64,000 bases of DNA from Paeniglutamicibacter sp. Y32M11 (GTDB taxonomy: Bacteria; Actinomycetota; Actinomycetes; Actinomycetales; Micrococcaceae), in contig NZ_CP079107.1 of assembly GCF_019285735.1 (NCBI RefSeq), forward strand, positions 3,100,001-3,164,000, written 5' to 3'. The notes under the pieces were generated by a model. The model did not search any database, was not told where the DNA came from, and saw only the letters and a program-made list of their open reading frames with translations. Shown here one piece after another: positions 48,306 to 60,982 of the stretch; the first letter of the stretch is position 1, and each line of letters starts with the position of its first letter. The position numbers and the translations under genes were made by a program.

Positions 48306-49319
48306 ATGAACCGCCAGACACTTCGCCTGCTCCCCCTCGCCATCGCCGGCACCCTTGCCCTGGCCGCCTGCGGAAACACCAGTACCGCGGAAGCTCCCGC
48401 CGCGGCAGCCGGAGAACTCCAGGTAGTCACCAGCACCACCGTGTACGCGGATCTGGTCCAGCAGATTGGCGGCGATCAGGTCAAGGTCACCCCCATCATC
48501 GATTCGGCGGCGAAGGATCCTCACTCCTACGAGGCGACGTCCCGCGACAAGCTCACCATGTCCAAGGCCCAGCTGGTGGTCGCCAATGGCGGCGGATACG
48601 ACGAATTCATGAACGTTTTGGCCACGGATCTGAAAATTGATGACTCAACGCTCATCAACGCCGTCGATACTTCGCCCGTCGCCCTGGTGGAAGAAGAAGA
48701 GGAGGAGGAGGGTCACGACCACGCCGAGGACAGCGCGGCCAGCGAATCCGCGGAAACCGGCGGGGAGGCAGATCCTCATGTCGGCCACAATCACGCAGCC
48801 TACAACGAGCATGTTTGGTACGACGTCGAGTCAATGCAATTGCTCAGCAATGAGATCACCAAGCATCTCTCCGAGCTGAAGCCGGAGGCAGCAGCCACCT
48901 TCGAGGCCAATGCTGCGGAACTCACTCAGAAGCTGAAGGGTTTGAGCACCGAGCTCACCAGTCTGGGGAAGAAGCTGGATGGCAAGCACTTCGCCATGAC
49001 CGAGCCCGTCCCCTTCCACCTGCTCGAAGATCTGGGCATGAGCGATGCAACCCCGGAGGGGCTGAGCGAATCCATCGAGGGTGACGGTGAAATTTCGCCC
49101 CAGGCCTTCAACCAGATGGGTACGCTGCTGACCGGCGGAGACATCGATGTGCTGGCCTACAACACGCAGACGCAAAGCCCGCAGACCGAGCGCATTCGCG
49201 AGCAGGCCACCAGCGCCAAGGTGCCGGTCGTTGACTTCACCGAAACCCTACCGGACAACACGGATTACGTGACCTGGATGGAATCGAACATTCACGCCCT
49301 TGAGGTCCTGGCCAAGTAG
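48306..49319 (+). CDS. zinc-binding lipoprotein, ZnuA-like, orphan
   Basis: The 337-residue protein has a lipobox LAAC (about residue 22), the metal-binding cluster A1 fold (VVTSTTVYADLVQQIGG) and a His/Asp/Glu-rich loop between about residues 125 and 170 (EEEEEEEGHDHAED ... DPHVGHNHAAYNEHVW) characteristic of zinc ABC transporter binding proteins. No ATPase or permease gene lies beside it, so it must use a transporter encoded elsewhere. AAAGGA lies before the ATG. Confidence 0.9.
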   Translation: MNRQTLRLLPLAIAGTLALAACGNTSTAEAPAAAAGELQVVTSTTVYADLVQQIGGDQVKVTPIIDSAAKDPHSYEATSRDKLTMSKAQLVVANGGGYDEFMNVLATDLKIDDSTLINAVDTSPVALVEEEEEEEGHDHAEDSAASESAETGGEADPHVGHNHAAYNEHVWYDVESMQLLSNEITKHLSELKPEAAATFEANAAELTQKLKGLSTELTSLGKKLDGKHFAMTEPVPFHLLEDLGMSDATPEGLSESIEGDGEISPQAFNQMGTLLTGGDIDVLAYNTQTQSPQTERIREQATSAKVPVVDFTETLPDNTDYVTWMESNIHALEVLAK

Positions 49320-49426: not shown

Positions 49427-50572
49427 CTAGGCGCTGGCCTGAGCGGTCTGCGGCCAGCGCAGCAACGCCGCGATGCCCACACCACCGGGCAGCACCCCGG
49501 CCGGAACATAACGGATGCTGGCGTCGGTGAGCGCCGTCGCACGCAACAGCACCTCCGGAGCCGGCCAGGAACCAATGACCAATTCGGCGTGGTCCTCCGC
49601 TTCTTCGCTGAGCAGCCACGGATCGGCCTTGAGCGCGATCAGCGTCTGATCATCCTGGTATTCGCTGACCAACACCGTTTCCACCTGCGCCTGTTGTAGC
49701 GCCGCGACAACGCTCTCAAAGCCCAGGGCAAGGTCGGTCCGCCCATTGCCACTGCGGTTTGATACTCGGGCGGAGAGTTCCTGGAGGTCTCGGCCCAGCA
49801 CCTCATCCACCTTTTCCTGCACGGCTTGGGCAAAGGCCCGCTGATCGGCGCCGCCGGTGCGGGTATGTTGCTCAAGAATGCTGGTGATCGGCTTGTTTGC
49901 TGCCCCGAGTTTGCTGGCGACTAATTCGCGGGCCTTAATATCTCCGGCGAGCACAATCAGTCGAACCTGATGATCTCGGGCCAACTCATCAATCTGCTGA
50001 GCCAGATCCTCGGCATTTCGCCGCCAGATTTCTTCGGTGCTGGATTGGTTTTTCGGTTCATCGTAGCGTCCCGGAACCTTGCGGGCGTGGTGTGCTTCCT
50101 CGGGATCGCCGGTGACCCCGCGACTTTCCTCGGCTCCCTTCACCGAGGAGTGGTAGAGCCGCACCTCTCCGCCGTCCTTGCTGGCTTCGGCCACCAGATA
50201 GGGGAACTGTCCACCGCGGGCCCGCGCGAGGGCCACCAGATTCGGGAAGGGTCCACAATTAATATCGGGGGTTTGCACATTCAAGCCGCTGATCACTTCA
50301 TCCAGCACCACTTCGCCGTTGTTTACCGCCACAAATCGTGCCACCGGCGAAGCATGTCCGGCGGCCGGAACCAAAACTTCGGTGAGTGCAAGAATGTCGG
50401 CCTCGGTTGCCTGCTGCGAACCGAGGATTTTTCTCACCTTCTCAGGGAGGGCGTCAACCGCTTCCTGAGCCGCGGTTGTTCCGAGTGAAACGTCTACCAG
50501 GGCCGTGCACCATTGGCCCTCTCGACGGTAAAGCGTGGCGTCGATTCCTGTGGAACCTGCGCGTGATGTCAT
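49427..50572 (-). CDS. Rv2629/Balon-type ribosome hibernation factor (eRF1-like)
   Basis: The 381-residue protein matches the Rv2629 family: a central eRF1-like domain (QVRLIVLAGDIKARELVASKLG) and a C-terminal domain (ALIALKADPWLLS ... VPAGVLPGGVGIAALLRW). Proteins of this family, including Balon of Psychrobacter, sit in the ribosomal A site during stress or cold. Assignment rests on recognisable sequence features, not on a search. GGAAGGAG lies before the ATG. The next gene on the strand is mgtE, separated by a terminator hairpin. Confidence 0.8.
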   Translation of the reverse strand: MTSRAGSTGIDATLYRREGQWCTALVDVSLGTTAAQEAVDALPEKVRKILGSQQATEADILALTEVLVPAAGHASPVARFVAVNNGEVVLDEVISGLNVQTPDINCGPFPNLVALARARGGQFPYLVAEASKDGGEVRLYHSSVKGAEESRGVTGDPEEAHHARKVPGRYDEPKNQSSTEEIWRRNAEDLAQQIDELARDHQVRLIVLAGDIKARELVASKLGAANKPITSILEQHTRTGGADQRAFAQAVQEKVDEVLGRDLQELSARVSNRSGNGRTDLALGFESVVAALQQAQVETVLVSEYQDDQTLIALKADPWLLSEEAEDHAELVIGSWPAPEVLLRATALTDASIRYVPAGVLPGGVGIAALLRWPQTAQASA

Positions 50573-50709
50573 GAGGGAACTCCTTCCAACGCGGGGAAGC
50601 CCGCGTGACCAATCGATCCTTCTGCTCACCGTAGCACCGCTTGATGCCTTGCCGAAAGGGGCTGTTGAAAAGGGTTTTTAGTCGGTACGCTTTACTCCTC
50701 AGGGCACCG

Positions 50710-50766
50710 CGAGCGGTCCCCAAAACGCCGTTATCAACCTCAATTTTCGGGTTTTGGGGCCGCTCG
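50710..50766 (-). terminator. terminator hairpin after mgtE
   Basis: CGAGCGG and CCGCTCG arms with inner CCCCAAAAC/GTTTTGGGG and one mismatch lie directly after the mgtE stop on the minus strand. Confidence 0.7.
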
Positions 50767-50769
50767 TGA

Positions 50770-52128
50770 CTACAGTCCCAGAATGGTGCTGGCGACCAGG
50801 AAGTAGATGATCAGGCCGGTGGCATCCACGAAGGTGGAGATGAACGGATTGGAGAATACCGCCGGATCCGCGCGCACCGCCTTGCCCAGCAGCGGCATCA
50901 ACCCGCCCAGGCTCGCCGCCATGGTGCAGACTCCCAGGAGCGTCAACCCGATAACCAGGCCCAAGGGCACGGTGAAGGCCAGGGCGGCAATCACAAAGCC
51001 CAGGGATCCGAGCAACAATCCCAGCAGCGCACCAACCCGGACCTCGCGGGTGAAGACCTTAAAGACATCTCGGGGACGGACATCGCCCAGCGCGAGCGCC
51101 CGGGTAATGGTGGTCGCCGCCTGATTCCCGGTGTTGCCACCGGTGCCAATCAGCAGCGGGATGAACAAGGAGAGCACCACCTGCGCCTCGAGTGTTGCCT
51201 CGAAGGCACCGATGACCTTCACCGTGAGCGTCGCGCCAAGTGCCAGAACCAACAGCCAGACGACGCGGGCCTTGACGATCGAACGCACCGGGGTAGCCAG
51301 GTAGGGCCGACGCAACGGCTCACTGCCGCCGGAGCGTGCAGCGTCCTCGCTCTCCGCATCCTCCAGAATCCGCAGCGCATCATCCACCGTCAGGATGCCG
51401 ACCAGGCGATCGCCCTCGTCAATGACCGGGAGCACCAACACCTTCGTTTCGGCGCAGTACCGTGCCGCATCCTCAACGTTCATCGATGCCACCACGCTCA
51501 GTGGCTTCTTCATGATCGAGCTGATGCTTGTGCTCGGATCGGCCCGCAGGACATCGCGCAGGGAGATGACCCCGATCAGCCGTGCCTGCGCATCGATGAC
51601 CGGGATGGTGTAAATGCTCTCCGCGTCATCGAGCCTGGCGCGCACCCGTTCCAGGGTGGCGCCCGCGTCGAGTGTCGGATCGGTGGTGACAAATTCCGGG
51701 CTCATAAAGCGTCCCACGGCCCGGTGCGGGTAGCTGCGCACGGCCGTGGTCAGTGTCCGTGAACGCTCATCCAGTCCGTGCATCAGCGCGGCCACCATGG
51801 ATTCGGGAAGTTCATCGGCAAGTGCCACGCGGTCATCCGGGCGCATCAAGGCAAACACCGTTGCGGCTTCGGTCTCGCTGAGCTGCTCAACGATCTCCAC
51901 CTGCAGTGAGGTGTCGAGGCGGTCAAAAACGTGCTGGGCCACCTCGGGGCGAAGCGCCGCATAAACTAGTCCGCGCTCGGCGGCGTTCAGCCGCTCATAC
52001 TGTTCGATGACTTCGGTGGTATCCAACGGTGCCAGGGCGGAGACGATCCCTCGATCATCGTGAGCCGTCAGCGCGTGAGCGAGCTGATCGGTGGTGATAT
52101 CAAAGGATGTGCTGGGAGATTTGATCAT
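50770..52128 (-). CDS. mgtE: magnesium channel MgtE
   Basis: The 452-residue protein has the N-domain (RLNAAERGLVYAALRPEVAQHVFDRLD), a pair of CBS domains (MSPEFVTTDPTLDAGATLERVR; MKKPLSVVASMNVEDAARY) and five helices with the pore signature GTGGNTGNQAATT. The cytoplasmic domains close the channel when magnesium is high. The ATG has GGAGG ten bases upstream; the frame runs 22 codons further up without a signal. A 300-base leader with a short ORF precedes it. Confidence 0.95.
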   Translation of the reverse strand: MIKSPSTSFDITTDQLAHALTAHDDRGIVSALAPLDTTEVIEQYERLNAAERGLVYAALRPEVAQHVFDRLDTSLQVEIVEQLSETEAATVFALMRPDDRVALADELPESMVAALMHGLDERSRTLTTAVRSYPHRAVGRFMSPEFVTTDPTLDAGATLERVRARLDDAESIYTIPVIDAQARLIGVISLRDVLRADPSTSISSIMKKPLSVVASMNVEDAARYCAETKVLVLPVIDEGDRLVGILTVDDALRILEDAESEDAARSGGSEPLRRPYLATPVRSIVKARVVWLLVLALGATLTVKVIGAFEATLEAQVVLSLFIPLLIGTGGNTGNQAATTITRALALGDVRPRDVFKVFTREVRVGALLGLLLGSLGFVIAALAFTVPLGLVIGLTLLGVCTMAASLGGLMPLLGKAVRADPAVFSNPFISTFVDATGLIIYFLVASTILGL

Positions 52129-52602
52129 GATCCGGGTCCCTCCGGTGGGGGCATACGCAGTCAAACGCGTTAAGACGCGGCGCATGCCAGTCATGGGTGG
52201 TGTGGGGGTATATCTTCACCGCAACCGCGAGGCACCCACGCACCAAAACCAGACATCATTTCCCGGATGATCCACGGCCCACCTCTGCCACCTCAAACGT
52301 AGCGGCGCCACATGGACGCAACACCCATGGCTGGGCGAAAGGAGTTAGAACCGAACCTCGGAGAGGATGACGCTGGCACGGCGGTGAGACACACGCGGTG
52401 CGATAGATCGACTTGGAACGTCGTCCATGCGTGCTCTCACCTCCTTCGGGCGCTTCGGCTAACTTCTGGGGATCCTCGGGTGAACTGCGTCCCCCGAGGG
52501 GCAGGCAGATACCCGGATCATTAAGGGGTACGCCCCCATCCTAGGCACAGTGCTCGGCACTAAGCCAACGGCTGTGTCCGAGCTCTCAGCGCGAGTGCGC
52601 TC
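52129..52602 (-). promoter_or_regulatory. long leader of mgtE with hairpins and a short ORF
   Basis: The stretch between mgtE and the GNAT gene has no other gene. Read leftward it has CCTCGGG/CCCGAGG arms, then a 27-codon ORF with perfect Shine-Dalgarno, then a hairpin at 52150-52188 (GGCATGCGC with GCGTATGCC, inner CGCGT/ACGCG) that ends about ten bases before the mgtE ribosome binding site. I could not match it to the M-box magnesium riboswitch. A leader-based control of mgtE is the natural inference. Confidence 0.5.
52345..52428 (-). CDS. 27-codon leader ORF of mgtE
   Basis: An ORF reading MDDVPSRS to SEVRF, with five Arg and five Ser, is preceded eight bases upstream by AAGGAGGTGA, which pairs over ten bases with the 16S 3' end. 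A ribosome would bind here far better than at mgtE itself. It lies about 215 bases upstream of the mgtE ATG. It could be a leader peptide whose translation switches the downstream structure, or a stand-alone small protein; no homologue is known to me. Confidence 0.55.
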   Translation of the reverse strand: MDDVPSRSIAPRVSHRRASVILSEVRF

Positions 52603-53109
52603 CTAGTGGGTGGGAACCCAGTAGCGATTGGTCATCCCGTCGCTGGCCTCAACGACGTTTTCCAACACTCCCCCATTGGCTTCGATGGTGCCGGCGGAGG
52701 CAATATTGTCCACCCGGCAGGTCACCAGCGCGCTCTCGATGCCCCGCTGAGCCAAGACGTGCAGCGACTGGCGCAGGATTTGGGTCGCATAACCTCGGCG
52801 GCGATGTTGTGGCCGCACCGCATAACCAACATGACCACCAACGGATCGCAGGTGATCGTTGAGTTCAAATCTGATGCAGGTGCGCCCCACCAGTTCACCG
52901 TCAACAAAGGCGCCCCAGAGTGCGGACTTCACCCATCCCGGTGGCAAGCCCAGGCCTTGTTCGTGGGCGGCGAGCTGCTCCAGATACTCAGCAAAACCGC
53001 GCCGGCTCGAGTATCCCAGGAGGAAGTCAAAGTCATCGGCATCCAGCTCGGTGCGCGCAGCGAGCGCAGCGTCGCTGTCCTGGAGGGTGAAAGGTCTAAT
53101 CAGAAGCAT
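52603..53109 (-). CDS. GNAT family N-acetyltransferase (RimJ/RimL-like)
   Basis: The 168-residue protein has the start MLLIRPFTLQDSDAALAAR and motif A YAVRPQHRRRGYATQILRQSL, followed by VTCRVDNIASAGTIEANGGVLENV, where Asn and Glu contact CoA as in RimJ/RimL enzymes. The substrate is unknown. Confidence 0.85.
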   Translation of the reverse strand: MLLIRPFTLQDSDAALAARTELDADDFDFLLGYSSRRGFAEYLEQLAAHEQGLGLPPGWVKSALWGAFVDGELVGRTCIRFELNDHLRSVGGHVGYAVRPQHRRRGYATQILRQSLHVLAQRGIESALVTCRVDNIASAGTIEANGGVLENVVEASDGMTNRYWVPTH

Positions 53110-53125
53110 GTTGTGAAGAGTATCA

Positions 53126-53154
53126 GGCGGGTGTCCCGCGATGGGACACCCGCC
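53126..53154 (-). terminator. terminator after sdaA
   Basis: GGCGGGTGTCCC and GGGACACCCGCC are perfect 12-base arms around a five-base loop just past the sdaA stop. Confidence 0.75.
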
Positions 53155-53176
53155 CGGTAATCGTGCGGCTAGAGAA

Positions 53177-54586
53177 CTAGCACTCGATGACGTTCACGGC
53201 CAGACCGCCCAGGGCGGTTTCCTTGTACTTCGAGCTCATGTCCTTGCCGGTTTCGCGCATGGTGATGATGACCTCGTCGAGCGTGACGTGGTGCTGTCCG
53301 TCGCCCATCAGCGCCATCTTGGCGGCGTTGATGGCCTTGGAGGCGGCAATGGCGTTGCGTTCGATGCAGGGAATCTGCACCAGCCCGCCAATCGGATCGC
53401 AGGTCAGGCCAAGGTTGTGTTCCATGGCGATTTCCGCGGCGTTCTCCACCTGGTCCACGGTGCCGCCCAAAATCTCGGCGAGTCCGCCGGCGGCCATCGA
53501 GGAGGCCGAACCGACCTCACCCTGGCAGCCGACCTCGGCGCCGGAGATGGAGGCCTGCTCCTTGTAGAGCACACCGATGGCGGCTGCGGTGAGCAGGAAG
53601 CGCACGATCACGTCATCGCGTTCCTCCTGGTTCCAGTACTTGGCCCCGGGTGCGTAGTGGGTCGCGTAGAACATCACCGCGGGGATGATGCCCGCTGCCC
53701 CATTGGTCGGGGCCGTGACCACACGACCGCCGGAGGCATTTTCCTCGTTGACGGCAAGGGCCACCAGGTTCACCCATTCCTGCCAGAACACCGGATCGCG
53801 GTCCTTGTCTTCCTTGGCCAGGCGTCGGTGCCATTCCGGAGCGCGGCGACGGACCTTCAACCCACCGGGCAGCACACCCTCACGTTCCAGGGAGGCATCC
53901 TTGCAATCCTCCATGACCTGCCAAATGTGCAACAGCCCGGCGCGGATCTCTTCCTTGGAGCGGTAGACCTCTTCGTTGGCGGCCATCACCCCGGCGATGG
54001 ACAGGCCCGAGGTGGCGCAGTGTTCCAGCAGCTTGGCCGCGGTGGTGAAGGGGTAGGGCTGCGCGTTGAGTGCGTCCTCGAGGTTGGCAGCAAGCTTTTC
54101 TTCGGCGCCCTCGCGCACGATGAAGCCACCGCCCACCGAGAAGTAGGTATCTTCGGCCAAAACGTTGCCGTCGGCATCCAATGCCGCCATCTTCATGCCG
54201 TTGGTGTGCCGTGCCAGCACGGTCAGCGGGTGCTGGATCATGTCCTCAACCTTGTAGTCGAGTTCCTTCACCGCGCCCAGTGCCTTGCAGAGCTGAAGTT
54301 TGCCCGTGGCGGCCATGGCGTCCAGGCGCTCATCCACCTCGGAGGGCAGGATGGCTTCGGGTTCATAGCCTTCCAAGCCCAGCATGATGGCGGTGAAGGT
54401 TCCATGGCCTCGGCCCGTCGCCGCGAGGGATCCGTAGACATCAACGCGTAGCGATACGGTATGCGCGAGGTGCTCTTCGCGGACAAGTTTTGAAGCAAAG
54501 GCGTAGGCGGCCCGCATCGGTCCCACGGTGTGCGACGACGATGGCCCGATACCTACGGTGAAAAGGTCAAAAACGCTGATAGCCAT
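53177..54586 (-). CDS. sdaA: L-serine ammonia-lyase
   Basis: The 469-residue protein is a fused-type L-serine dehydratase with the beta-domain start [24 protein letters not shown] and the Fe-S-site Cys segments ([42 protein letters not shown]). It turns serine into pyruvate and ammonia. The ATG was chosen for AAGGA upstream. It is the last gene of the glycine operon, which suggests that serine made from glycine is burned. Confidence 0.94.
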
Positions 54587-60553: not shown

Positions 60554-60780
60554 GTTCCTCCCCGACCCTGTTGCTGTGACCTGAGAGTTTCCGCGATGTT
60601 CCGCATCCTAGTGGGGATCCGGCACACGCTTGCACCTTCGGTGAGCAGCACCGCCGCGAGGCGATGTTACTTCTTTCCAGAGTTGCCTCTTCGCGGCGGT
60701 ACGGGGGCCTGAGAGTTTCCCGGGGAGGAATTGCTCCTACGGCGCCCGACCAACTTTCGCTGAACGGGACTCTCCCGCCG
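60554..60780 (-). promoter_or_regulatory. tandem glycine riboswitch
   Basis: Two copies of CCTGAGAGTTTCC (plus strand, 60580-60592 and 60708-60720) are the conserved GGAAACTCTCAGG segment of two glycine aptamers. The first aptamer starts with GGGAGAGTCCC near 60780 and has GCGCCGTAGGAGCAA; the second has CACCGAAGGTGCAAGC near 60629-60645. The pair lies upstream of gcvP, so glycine would switch on the whole gcvP-gcvT-gcvH-glyA-sdaA operon. Confidence 0.93.
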
Positions 60781-60982
60781 CATGTCAGTGGCTGTGCCTC
60801 GTGAGAGGCACGGCTCTTATCCTACCGGCGAAGCGTGAGCTAAACAACATGGATTACTTCGTCCCAAGCCAGCATCGAGGTTTGCGGATGAAGCGGAGAA
60901 CTTTCGGCTCCCGGCCGACACTTTCTCGCCCTGCGACGTGGCGAATTGTCCTTGAGCTCTGCCCGTTGTCATCGTTCTCGAG

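Follow-up and report, generated by a model that had tools for sequence, protein, structure and literature searches.

A conserved upstream ORF in the mgtE leader of Paeniglutamicibacter resembles small ORFs that follow M-box riboswitches

Results

The mgtE leader contains a short ORF with a strong Shine-Dalgarno sequence

The window analyzed here is a 64,000-nucleotide stretch of Paeniglutamicibacter sp. Y32M11 (contig NZ_CP079107.1, positions 3,100,001 to 3,164,000), and all coordinates below refer to it. A sequence-only reading of this DNA had proposed that a small ORF lies in the leader of a magnesium transporter gene. The downstream gene is indeed an ordinary transporter of the MgtE_N-CBS-MgtE architecture, as judged by Pfam, and the gene upstream of the leader encodes a GNAT acetyltransferase. 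The coding features of the locus are as follows.

50770-52128, minus strand: mgtE, MgtE-type Mg2+ transporter, 452 aa (Pfam MgtE_N, CBS, MgtE), ATG at 52128
52143-52138, minus strand: Shine-Dalgarno sequence (SD) of mgtE, GGAGGG
52428-52345, minus strand: upstream ORF (uORF), 27 sense codons and TAA, ATG at 52428, encoding MDDVPSRSIAPRVSHRRASVILSEVRF
52446-52437, minus strand: uORF SD AAGGAGGTGA, 10 bases, located 8 bases 5′ of the ATG
52405-52428, minus strand: conserved codons 1-8 of the uORF (MDDVPSRS), putative sensor (codon counts, 40 unique leaders)
52408-52413, minus strand: codons 6-7, AGT CGA (codon counts over unique leaders)
52538-52543, minus strand: candidate −10 hexamer TAGGAT

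The 27-codon ORF and its 10-base SD, eight bases before the ATG, agree in coordinates and letters with the earlier description, and the gap between the uORF stop and the mgtE start, given there as about 215 bases, counts to 216 nt. The uORF itself sits 300 nt upstream of mgtE. A strict consensus scan found no promoter; TAGGAT, picked out by eye and seen in several leaders, is a possible −10 element.

The encoded peptide begins MDDVPSR and thus has acidic residues near its N-terminus. The window and its nearest relative have Val at position 4, where the rest of the genus has Gly. Position 6 is a Ser encoded by AGT, as in the uORFs of M-box loci described below (for example MSPGDSP). Position 7 is Arg, not the Pro of Rv1805A-type uORFs, and Pro7 does occur in two related leaders (L017, L021). 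Codons 5-8 (CCA AGT CGA TCT) form a run of rare codons, since each is infrequent in the codon usage of the window (CCA, 8.6% of Pro; AGT, 6.5%, and TCT, 3.1% of Ser; CGA, 7.6% of Arg).

The uORF is conserved upstream of mgtE

The sequence-only reading had named a lack of the ORF in related mgtE leaders as one ground for refutation, and this outcome did not arise. We found the uORF before mgtE in all 15 Paeniglutamicibacter genomes searched, the genome of the window counted. Of 59 genomes searched, 26 had a strong mgtE orthologue (E below 1e-100), and the uORF was present in 18 of these. Three of the uORF-bearing genomes chosen by orthology belong to other genera (L017, L021, L024). The uORF was not found within 800 nt of mgtE in the remaining 8 of 26 (L018-L020, L022, L023, L025-L027). 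A pattern search across 395 genomes of the family matched 22, every one of them before mgtE; this count is a lower bound because the pattern misses the Val4 form of the window itself as well as His5 and Asn5 forms.

A scan of a species collection returned 45 stretches, of which 33 had mgtE downstream by tblastn, including a Butyrivibrio MAG (L071) with a distant MgtE at 25% identity that was confirmed by Pfam. In L079 an MgtE-like start lies downstream by eye. Three matches fell in Eremiobacterota MAGs, two of them before Nramp genes. By sequence comparison, therefore, the uORF is a real leader ORF of mgtE that is conserved beyond chance.

Other matches were set aside. Eight stretches of the species collection (L058, L061, L066, L075, L081, L086, L090, L098) had no mgtE by tblastn and look unrelated, as do the extra matches (2 in the phylum of L074, 6 in the order of L071) that looser patterns yielded beyond the known loci. 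The search for plasmid copies of the motif gave three partial matches only, at E of about 6. One contig filed under Sporosarcina (L064) carries a high-GC leader and an mgtE start like those of Arthrobacter, and is probably assembly contamination.

Conservation is concentrated in the first eight codons

Codon counts were made on 77 leaders merged by identical starts into 40 unique ones. Many of these had been found with patterns favouring AGT and CGA, and the SD core common to the set, GAGGTG, was imposed by leader selection. The consensus of codons 1-8 is MDDG-x-SRS, in which position 5 varies freely (P, H, S, N, R or Q) and positions 2 and 3 are D or E in 40/40 leaders (MDD, MED or MDE). In this pattern-biased set, codon 6 is AGT in 37/40, codon 7 is CGA in 38/40, and codon 8 is TCT in 29/40. 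Among leaders chosen by mgtE orthology, 16 of 18 have AGT at codon 6, a codon that makes up 5.4% of Ser codons in Micrococcaceae loci. Such synonymous constraint favors a role in cis, at the level of translation, and disfavors a trans-acting peptide.

Codons 9-13 are likewise conserved inside the Paeniglutamicibacter/Arthrobacter clade. Across lineages, the remainder of the uORF and its length differ, with 18-36 codons in Micrococcaceae alone. The earlier reading, which invoked translation of the Arg/Ser-rich peptide, must therefore be narrowed: the body of the peptide is not common to the lineages, and what endures is a stretch of some eight codons from the start, the sixth being AGT.

Related uORFs follow M-box riboswitches in other lineages

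Rfam returned nothing at gathering score in the leader, and the known Mg2+ leader families went unmatched, among them the enterobacterial mgtA leader family (Rfam Mg_sensor). No M-box (RF00380) was found in the mgtE leader, and none in the whole genome, where search filters can lose weak matches; the failure of the sequence-only reading to match the M-box consensus is thus borne out. The single match up to E 5 was to a ribosomal-protein leader on the opposite strand (E 2.1), weak and unrelated. That reading had gone on to suggest a new type of leader. The comparisons below point instead to an M-box-less relative of uORFs that lie behind M-boxes in several phyla.

In the actinobacterial class, M-boxes occur in 5/148 genomes, at 9 loci. 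All nine have a uORF 60-105 nt downstream with the SD GGAGGTG and AGT as codon 6, and their starts include MSPGDSP, MSSSDSP, MSPDDSP, MSPGHSP, MSSGSSP and MPEGNSQ. When the class was searched by pattern with no M-box criterion, 21/394 genomes matched and 17 of the 21 had an M-box upstream (15/19, together with L154 and L157, whose loci are identical to ones from the class M-box search). Two of the matches, L167 and L168, keep the uORF with no M-box in the stretch examined, and by eye they share promoter-side sequence with their relatives L166, L169 and L170. This looks like a natural loss of the riboswitch in which the uORF was retained. The other two matches, L156 and L172, also had no M-box and look unrelated.

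Two Eremiobacterota loci have an M-box directly 5′ of the uORF. M-boxes were present in 95/147 genomes of Eremiobacterota, the phylum of L074, and in 22/116 Clostridia genomes, from the order of L071. We read 69 Eremiobacterota loci, namely the 30 best and 39 further ones among the matches listed, the fortieth of these being too short, as well as each of the 22 Clostridia loci. L190 was dropped, as its contig ends after the M-box. A motif start was defined as an SD-preceded small-ORF start of the form [MV]-x-x-[GS]-x-S within 320 nt, a rule framed with some of the loci already in view. Such starts made up 19/75 starts in Eremiobacterota (19/69 M-box loci), 6/27 in Clostridia (6/22 loci) and 8/20 in Actinobacteria (8/9 loci), compared with 4/324 in background stretches of the M-box loci.

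The motif rule requires Ser at position 6 and leaves its codon free. Nevertheless, codon 6 is AGT in 32/33 motif starts (Eremiobacterota 18/19, Clostridia 6/6, Actinobacteria 8/8), whereas AGT accounts for 5.6%, 15.6% and 3.4% of Ser codons in the M-box loci of these groups (binomial p = 1e-5 to 1e-22, with related sequences treated as independent). Asp is found at position 2 in 19/19 Eremiobacterota and 5/6 Clostridia motif ORFs. The motif start is not universal: it was missing at 1/9 M-box loci in Actinobacteria, and at 50/69 in Eremiobacterota and 16/22 in Clostridia, in the latter two groups often because a long ORF follows immediately.

The genome of L074 and L147 has two consecutive Nramp-like genes, each with its own copy of the uORF (L074 1494-1592). 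One copy, VDDGPSRL, stands behind the M-box; the other, MDDGPSRI, stands between the Nramp-like genes, and its stop codon overlaps the SD that follows. In several Eremiobacterota loci (L128, L137, L143, L149, L151 and others), a second small ORF of the form MKK...DDSLRANQF...PWL, which looks conserved, was seen behind the uORF.

Taken together, the uORF of the window resembles the M-box-following uORFs in its SD, its position and its start. Its retention where there is no M-box suggests that Mg2+ may be sensed partly by the ribosome itself.

RNA structure of the mgtE leader

RNA structure was analyzed in 31 chosen Paeniglutamicibacter/Arthrobacter leaders, 30 of them unique; the alignment did not include additional same-species copies that other searches had returned, nor L088, for want of a settled mgtE start. 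Structures were scored on the alignments that yielded them, and the shuffle tests ignore relatedness. The elements considered are listed here in the order in which they would be transcribed.

52391-52404, minus strand: segment 1 (codons 9-13), 5′ strand of a predicted long-range helix (RNAalifold and pair counts)
52383-52389, minus strand: putative anti-SD TCTCACC, seven bases inside the uORF, complementary to the uORF's own SD region at 52441-52435
52218-52229, minus strand: segment 2 CGCGGTTGCGGT, 3′ strand of the predicted long-range helix (RNAalifold and pair counts)
52188-52150, minus strand: mgtE-proximal hairpin, 12 pairs, ending 6 bases before the mgtE SD
52132-52145, minus strand: predicted mini-hairpin CCGG-AGGGAC-CCGG presenting the mgtE SD

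The mgtE-proximal hairpin was counted in 28 leaders, with L012 and L016 dropped from the tail alignment. Its strands could pair in 85.7% of cells, against 79.1% when shuffled, and 25 cells had two-sided changes, against 12.9 in shuffles; neither value was reached in any of 1000 shuffles. Pairs with a two-sided change were not exceptionally numerous (88/1000 shuffles). These counts mark the hairpin as a conserved RNA element. The sequence-only reading had its position right and its distance wrong, placing it about 10 bases before the mgtE ribosome binding site where we measure 6 to the SD.

The long-range helix consists of 13 pairs with a mean probability of 0.95 (RNAalifold, 30 unique leaders), and the 3′ end of the site that pairs with codons 9-13 lies 86-130 nt before mgtE. 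It is paired in 86.7% of cells versus 83.1% when shuffled, with 22 two-sided cells versus 10.7 (0/1000 shuffles reach either value); the numbers of two-sided pairs and of pair types were not exceptional (53/1000 and 167/1000 shuffles). The anti-SD was assessed in uORF nt 34-64 of 36 leaders, a region picked after inspection, where the mean complementary run was 4.97 compared with 4.00 in shuffles (0/500), and a control region was not enriched (183/500). The CCGG mini-hairpin had 7 two-sided cells versus 1.1 when shuffled (0/1000), with a change from G-C to U-G in 5/30 leaders. Separately, in the Glutamicibacter-type leaders L033, L037 and L038, codons 13-14 contain CCTCC, which is complementary to the uORF's own SD and falls near the position of segment 1 in the main clade.

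As a whole, the naked leader was not unusual in stability (z −0.93). An intrinsic terminator scan of 50500-53200 returned 4 sites, against 1.7 in shuffles; the one weak candidate in the leader (5 pairs, 52266-52249) was rejected, its sequence being present only in L002 and L003 of the alignment.

The sequence-only reading had suggested that translation of the peptide may switch the hairpin and control mgtE. We also folded the 31 leaders under a ribosome-sized mask and followed the accessibility of the mgtE SD. Mean accessibility was 0.31 for the naked leader and 0.23 when a ribosome was held at codons 6-7; it was 0.26 both for a ribosome at the stop and for a masked segment 1. Comparing the held ribosome with the one at the stop, accessibility rose by more than 0.05 in 7/31 leaders and fell by as much in 11/31 (Wilcoxon p 0.27). 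The predicted switching of the mgtE SD thus showed no consistent effect in this folding, and the mean moved slightly opposite to the model considered below.

Discussion

The closest counterpart of the window leader is the second uORF behind mycobacterial M-boxes (Rv1805A, with relatives Rv1535A and Rv0115A), which the available text of its report calls mycobacteria-specific (PMC12810186). According to that text, both have a strong SD, a short uORF, a conserved N-terminus and a Mg2+ gene context, and a homologue without an M-box is reported there, like the window leader. The window leader differs in having no M-box, in Arg7 in place of Pro7, in its position directly before mgtE and in lying outside mycobacteria. 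The actinobacterial M-box uORFs read here match uORF2/Rv1805A, as described in that text, by place, SD and Pro7, with the peptide letters of Rv1805A outside the comparison, and at this same place they have M-x-x-G-x-S with AGT at codon 6. We therefore regard the window leader as a probable M-box-less form of a kind of leader ORF known from mycobacteria, with a range that appears far wider than reported. Our literature search, which took in few subscription papers and could not search peptide letters in figures, recognised no paper reporting the uORF outside mycobacteria. The likely relatives in Micrococcaceae, Eremiobacterota and Clostridia bear on the role of the mycobacterial M-box uORF, as far as the accessible part of its report describes it (PMC12810186).

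Among other Mg2+ leaders, the M-box belongs to the same regulon and often lies directly upstream of such uORFs, and was not found in the leader or the genome here. Early codons of the mgtL leader peptide control the E. coli mgtA transporter gene through ribosome loss (PMC11282234); like the uORF here, mgtL is a brief ORF that precedes the gene of a Mg2+ transporter and has special codons near its start. It is unlike the uORF in its peptide, EPDP, and, on the portions of the report consulted, a Rho-dependent output is demonstrated for mgtL alone (PMC11282234). Early-codon control has also been described for mgtQ of the Salmonella mgtC-mgtB operon, in a report whose consulted part infers the ribosome loss itself (PMC8092293). 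This ORF resembles the uORF in its shortness and its acidic early residues, and its translation picks between alternative stems; it is unlike it in having 8 codons, sitting between two genes and relying, in the published model, on a stem that sequesters the ribosome binding site, while no SD switching is predicted for the leader studied here. The mgtE motif of Thioalkalivibrio is likewise a structured mgtE leader, yet it is a riboswitch candidate reported only from that genus, and the part of the report available to us does not mention a uORF (PMC11109978). Shin et al. placed M-boxes before Nramp-related Mg2+ transporters, where the small ORF described in the available text is an MgtE-like fragment (PMC4072509).

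The shared start, the near-fixed synonymous codon and the M-box-free retention point to a cis-acting signal in early elongation. An ORF start held at a fixed distance from the start codon, together with synonymous constraint, is likewise best read as a signal in cis for the elongating ribosome. We think it somewhat probable that the uORF acts as a cis-acting leader peptide in which early translation, at codons 4-8, is the Mg2+-linked signal and the RNA outputs are lineage-specific. Codons 1-8 would serve as a signal to the ribosome during elongation. Under Mg2+ shortage, a ribosome whose nascent chain is M-x-x-G-x would slow or drop off at codons 6-7, which in the clade of the window are the rare AGT and then the rare CGA, and its stopping point would set the choice of mRNA helices. 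A held ribosome would mask segment 1, leaving segment 2 free and mgtE expressed. Were the uORF finished, segment 1 could pair with segment 2 and the anti-SD could close the uORF's own SD, and this would lower mgtE expression, through translation or Rho. In other lineages the same start would serve other outputs, frequently alongside an M-box. Downstream parts such as the hairpins, the anti-SD and the overlap of stop and SD in L074 vary by lineage and may in this respect be likened to a riboswitch expression platform.

We count in favor of a cis-acting leader peptide the conservation before mgtE, the M-box linkage in three phyla, AGT at codon 6, the varying uORF length, the M-box-free L167 and L168, the long-range helix, the anti-SD and the precedent of mgtL and mgtQ. 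Against it we count the 8 of 26 genomes with no uORF and the M-box loci with no motif start. The lack of early acidic residues in some relatives and the unexceptional counts of two-sided pairs and pair types in the long-range helix also speak against it. The mechanism is further weakened because folding under the ribosome mask departed from what the model calls for. The link to Mg2+ appears to follow from gene context and the M-box.

A related explanation is that the peptide destabilises the ribosome as in E. coli mgtL, an acidic N-terminus (MDD, MED) driving drop-off at low Mg2+ and codons mattering little. The D or E at positions 2 and 3 of every unique leader and the frequent Asp2 of Eremiobacterota and Clostridia motif ORFs fit this, and it has precedents in the accessible descriptions of mgtL (EPDP) and mgtQ (Asp2, Glu5). 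However, the actinobacterial M-box forms start with MSP, VSP, MSS, MTS or MPE, some relatives having no acidic residues there (MSSGSSP, MSPGHSP), and amino acids leave AGT at codon 6 unexplained. No AGT rule is known for mgtL. We consider this explanation unlikely. Alternatively, the uORF start could be an RNA element whose coding is incidental. A hairpin around the start codon (GACGAC/GUCG-A-UCUA) has a mean pairing probability of 0.985 in Paeniglutamicibacter/Arthrobacter leaders (RNAalifold), and since AGTCGATCTA can pair with codons 1-3, the nucleotide constraint there could partly be RNA structure. But neither that pairing nor the hairpin, conserved as it is, has a single two-sided change, so we rejected the hairpin as an RNA element. 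Eremiobacterota, moreover, keep Ser-Arg by way of AGT AGA and AGT AGG, which by eye breaks the pairing, and AGT stays at a constant distance from the start codon. An incidental coding role is thus decidedly improbable.

The uORF product might instead be a small trans-acting protein of the sort suggested for Rv1805A, with the transporter as one conceivable target. Its mycobacterial form is conserved and well expressed in reporter assays, and a mycobacterial homologue is located away from any M-box, according to the text available (PMC12810186). Across lineages, however, only the first 6-8 residues are common while the length and the rest differ, and a trans-acting protein sits poorly with the synonymous constraint at codon 6; we give it very little chance. 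An equally poor prospect, to our minds, is plain translation coupling, in which the uORF would only block Rho or feed ribosomes to mgtE and carry no Mg2+ signal. Such coupling would fit the excess of C over G seen in 29/30 leaders (nt 45-145 from the start of the uORF), which is slight in the window (0.32 vs 0.30), and the L074 stop that overlaps the next SD, but it leaves the fixed N-terminus and the M-box linkage unexplained.

A broader form of the cis-acting reading, which we put forward tentatively and with more doubt than belief, is that codons 1-8 of the uORF, the sixth being AGU, make up a widespread, portable and codon-positioned Mg2+ sensor. It would be comparable to an aptamer in which the ribosome does the sensing as it elongates; one conceivable route is a wobble decoding of AGU that is sensitive to Mg2+ while the nascent chain is short. 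Such a sensor would be common to three or more phyla, in most cases backing up an M-box as a second checkpoint, and could stand M-box-free, as before mgtE in Micrococcaceae. Were this so, a considerable share of the Mg2+ genes under riboswitch control would have a second, ribosome-based sensor.

Other features of the window

A glycine riboswitch aptamer (RF00504, 64.9 bits) was found at 60687-60787 on the minus strand, within a few kb of ORFs that by eye resemble serine dehydratase and serine hydroxymethyltransferase. At 48306-49319 on the plus strand, an ORF resembles by eye a metal-binding lipoprotein whose acidic loop contains His (EEEEEEEGHDHAED), and is perhaps a zinc or manganese substrate-binding protein.
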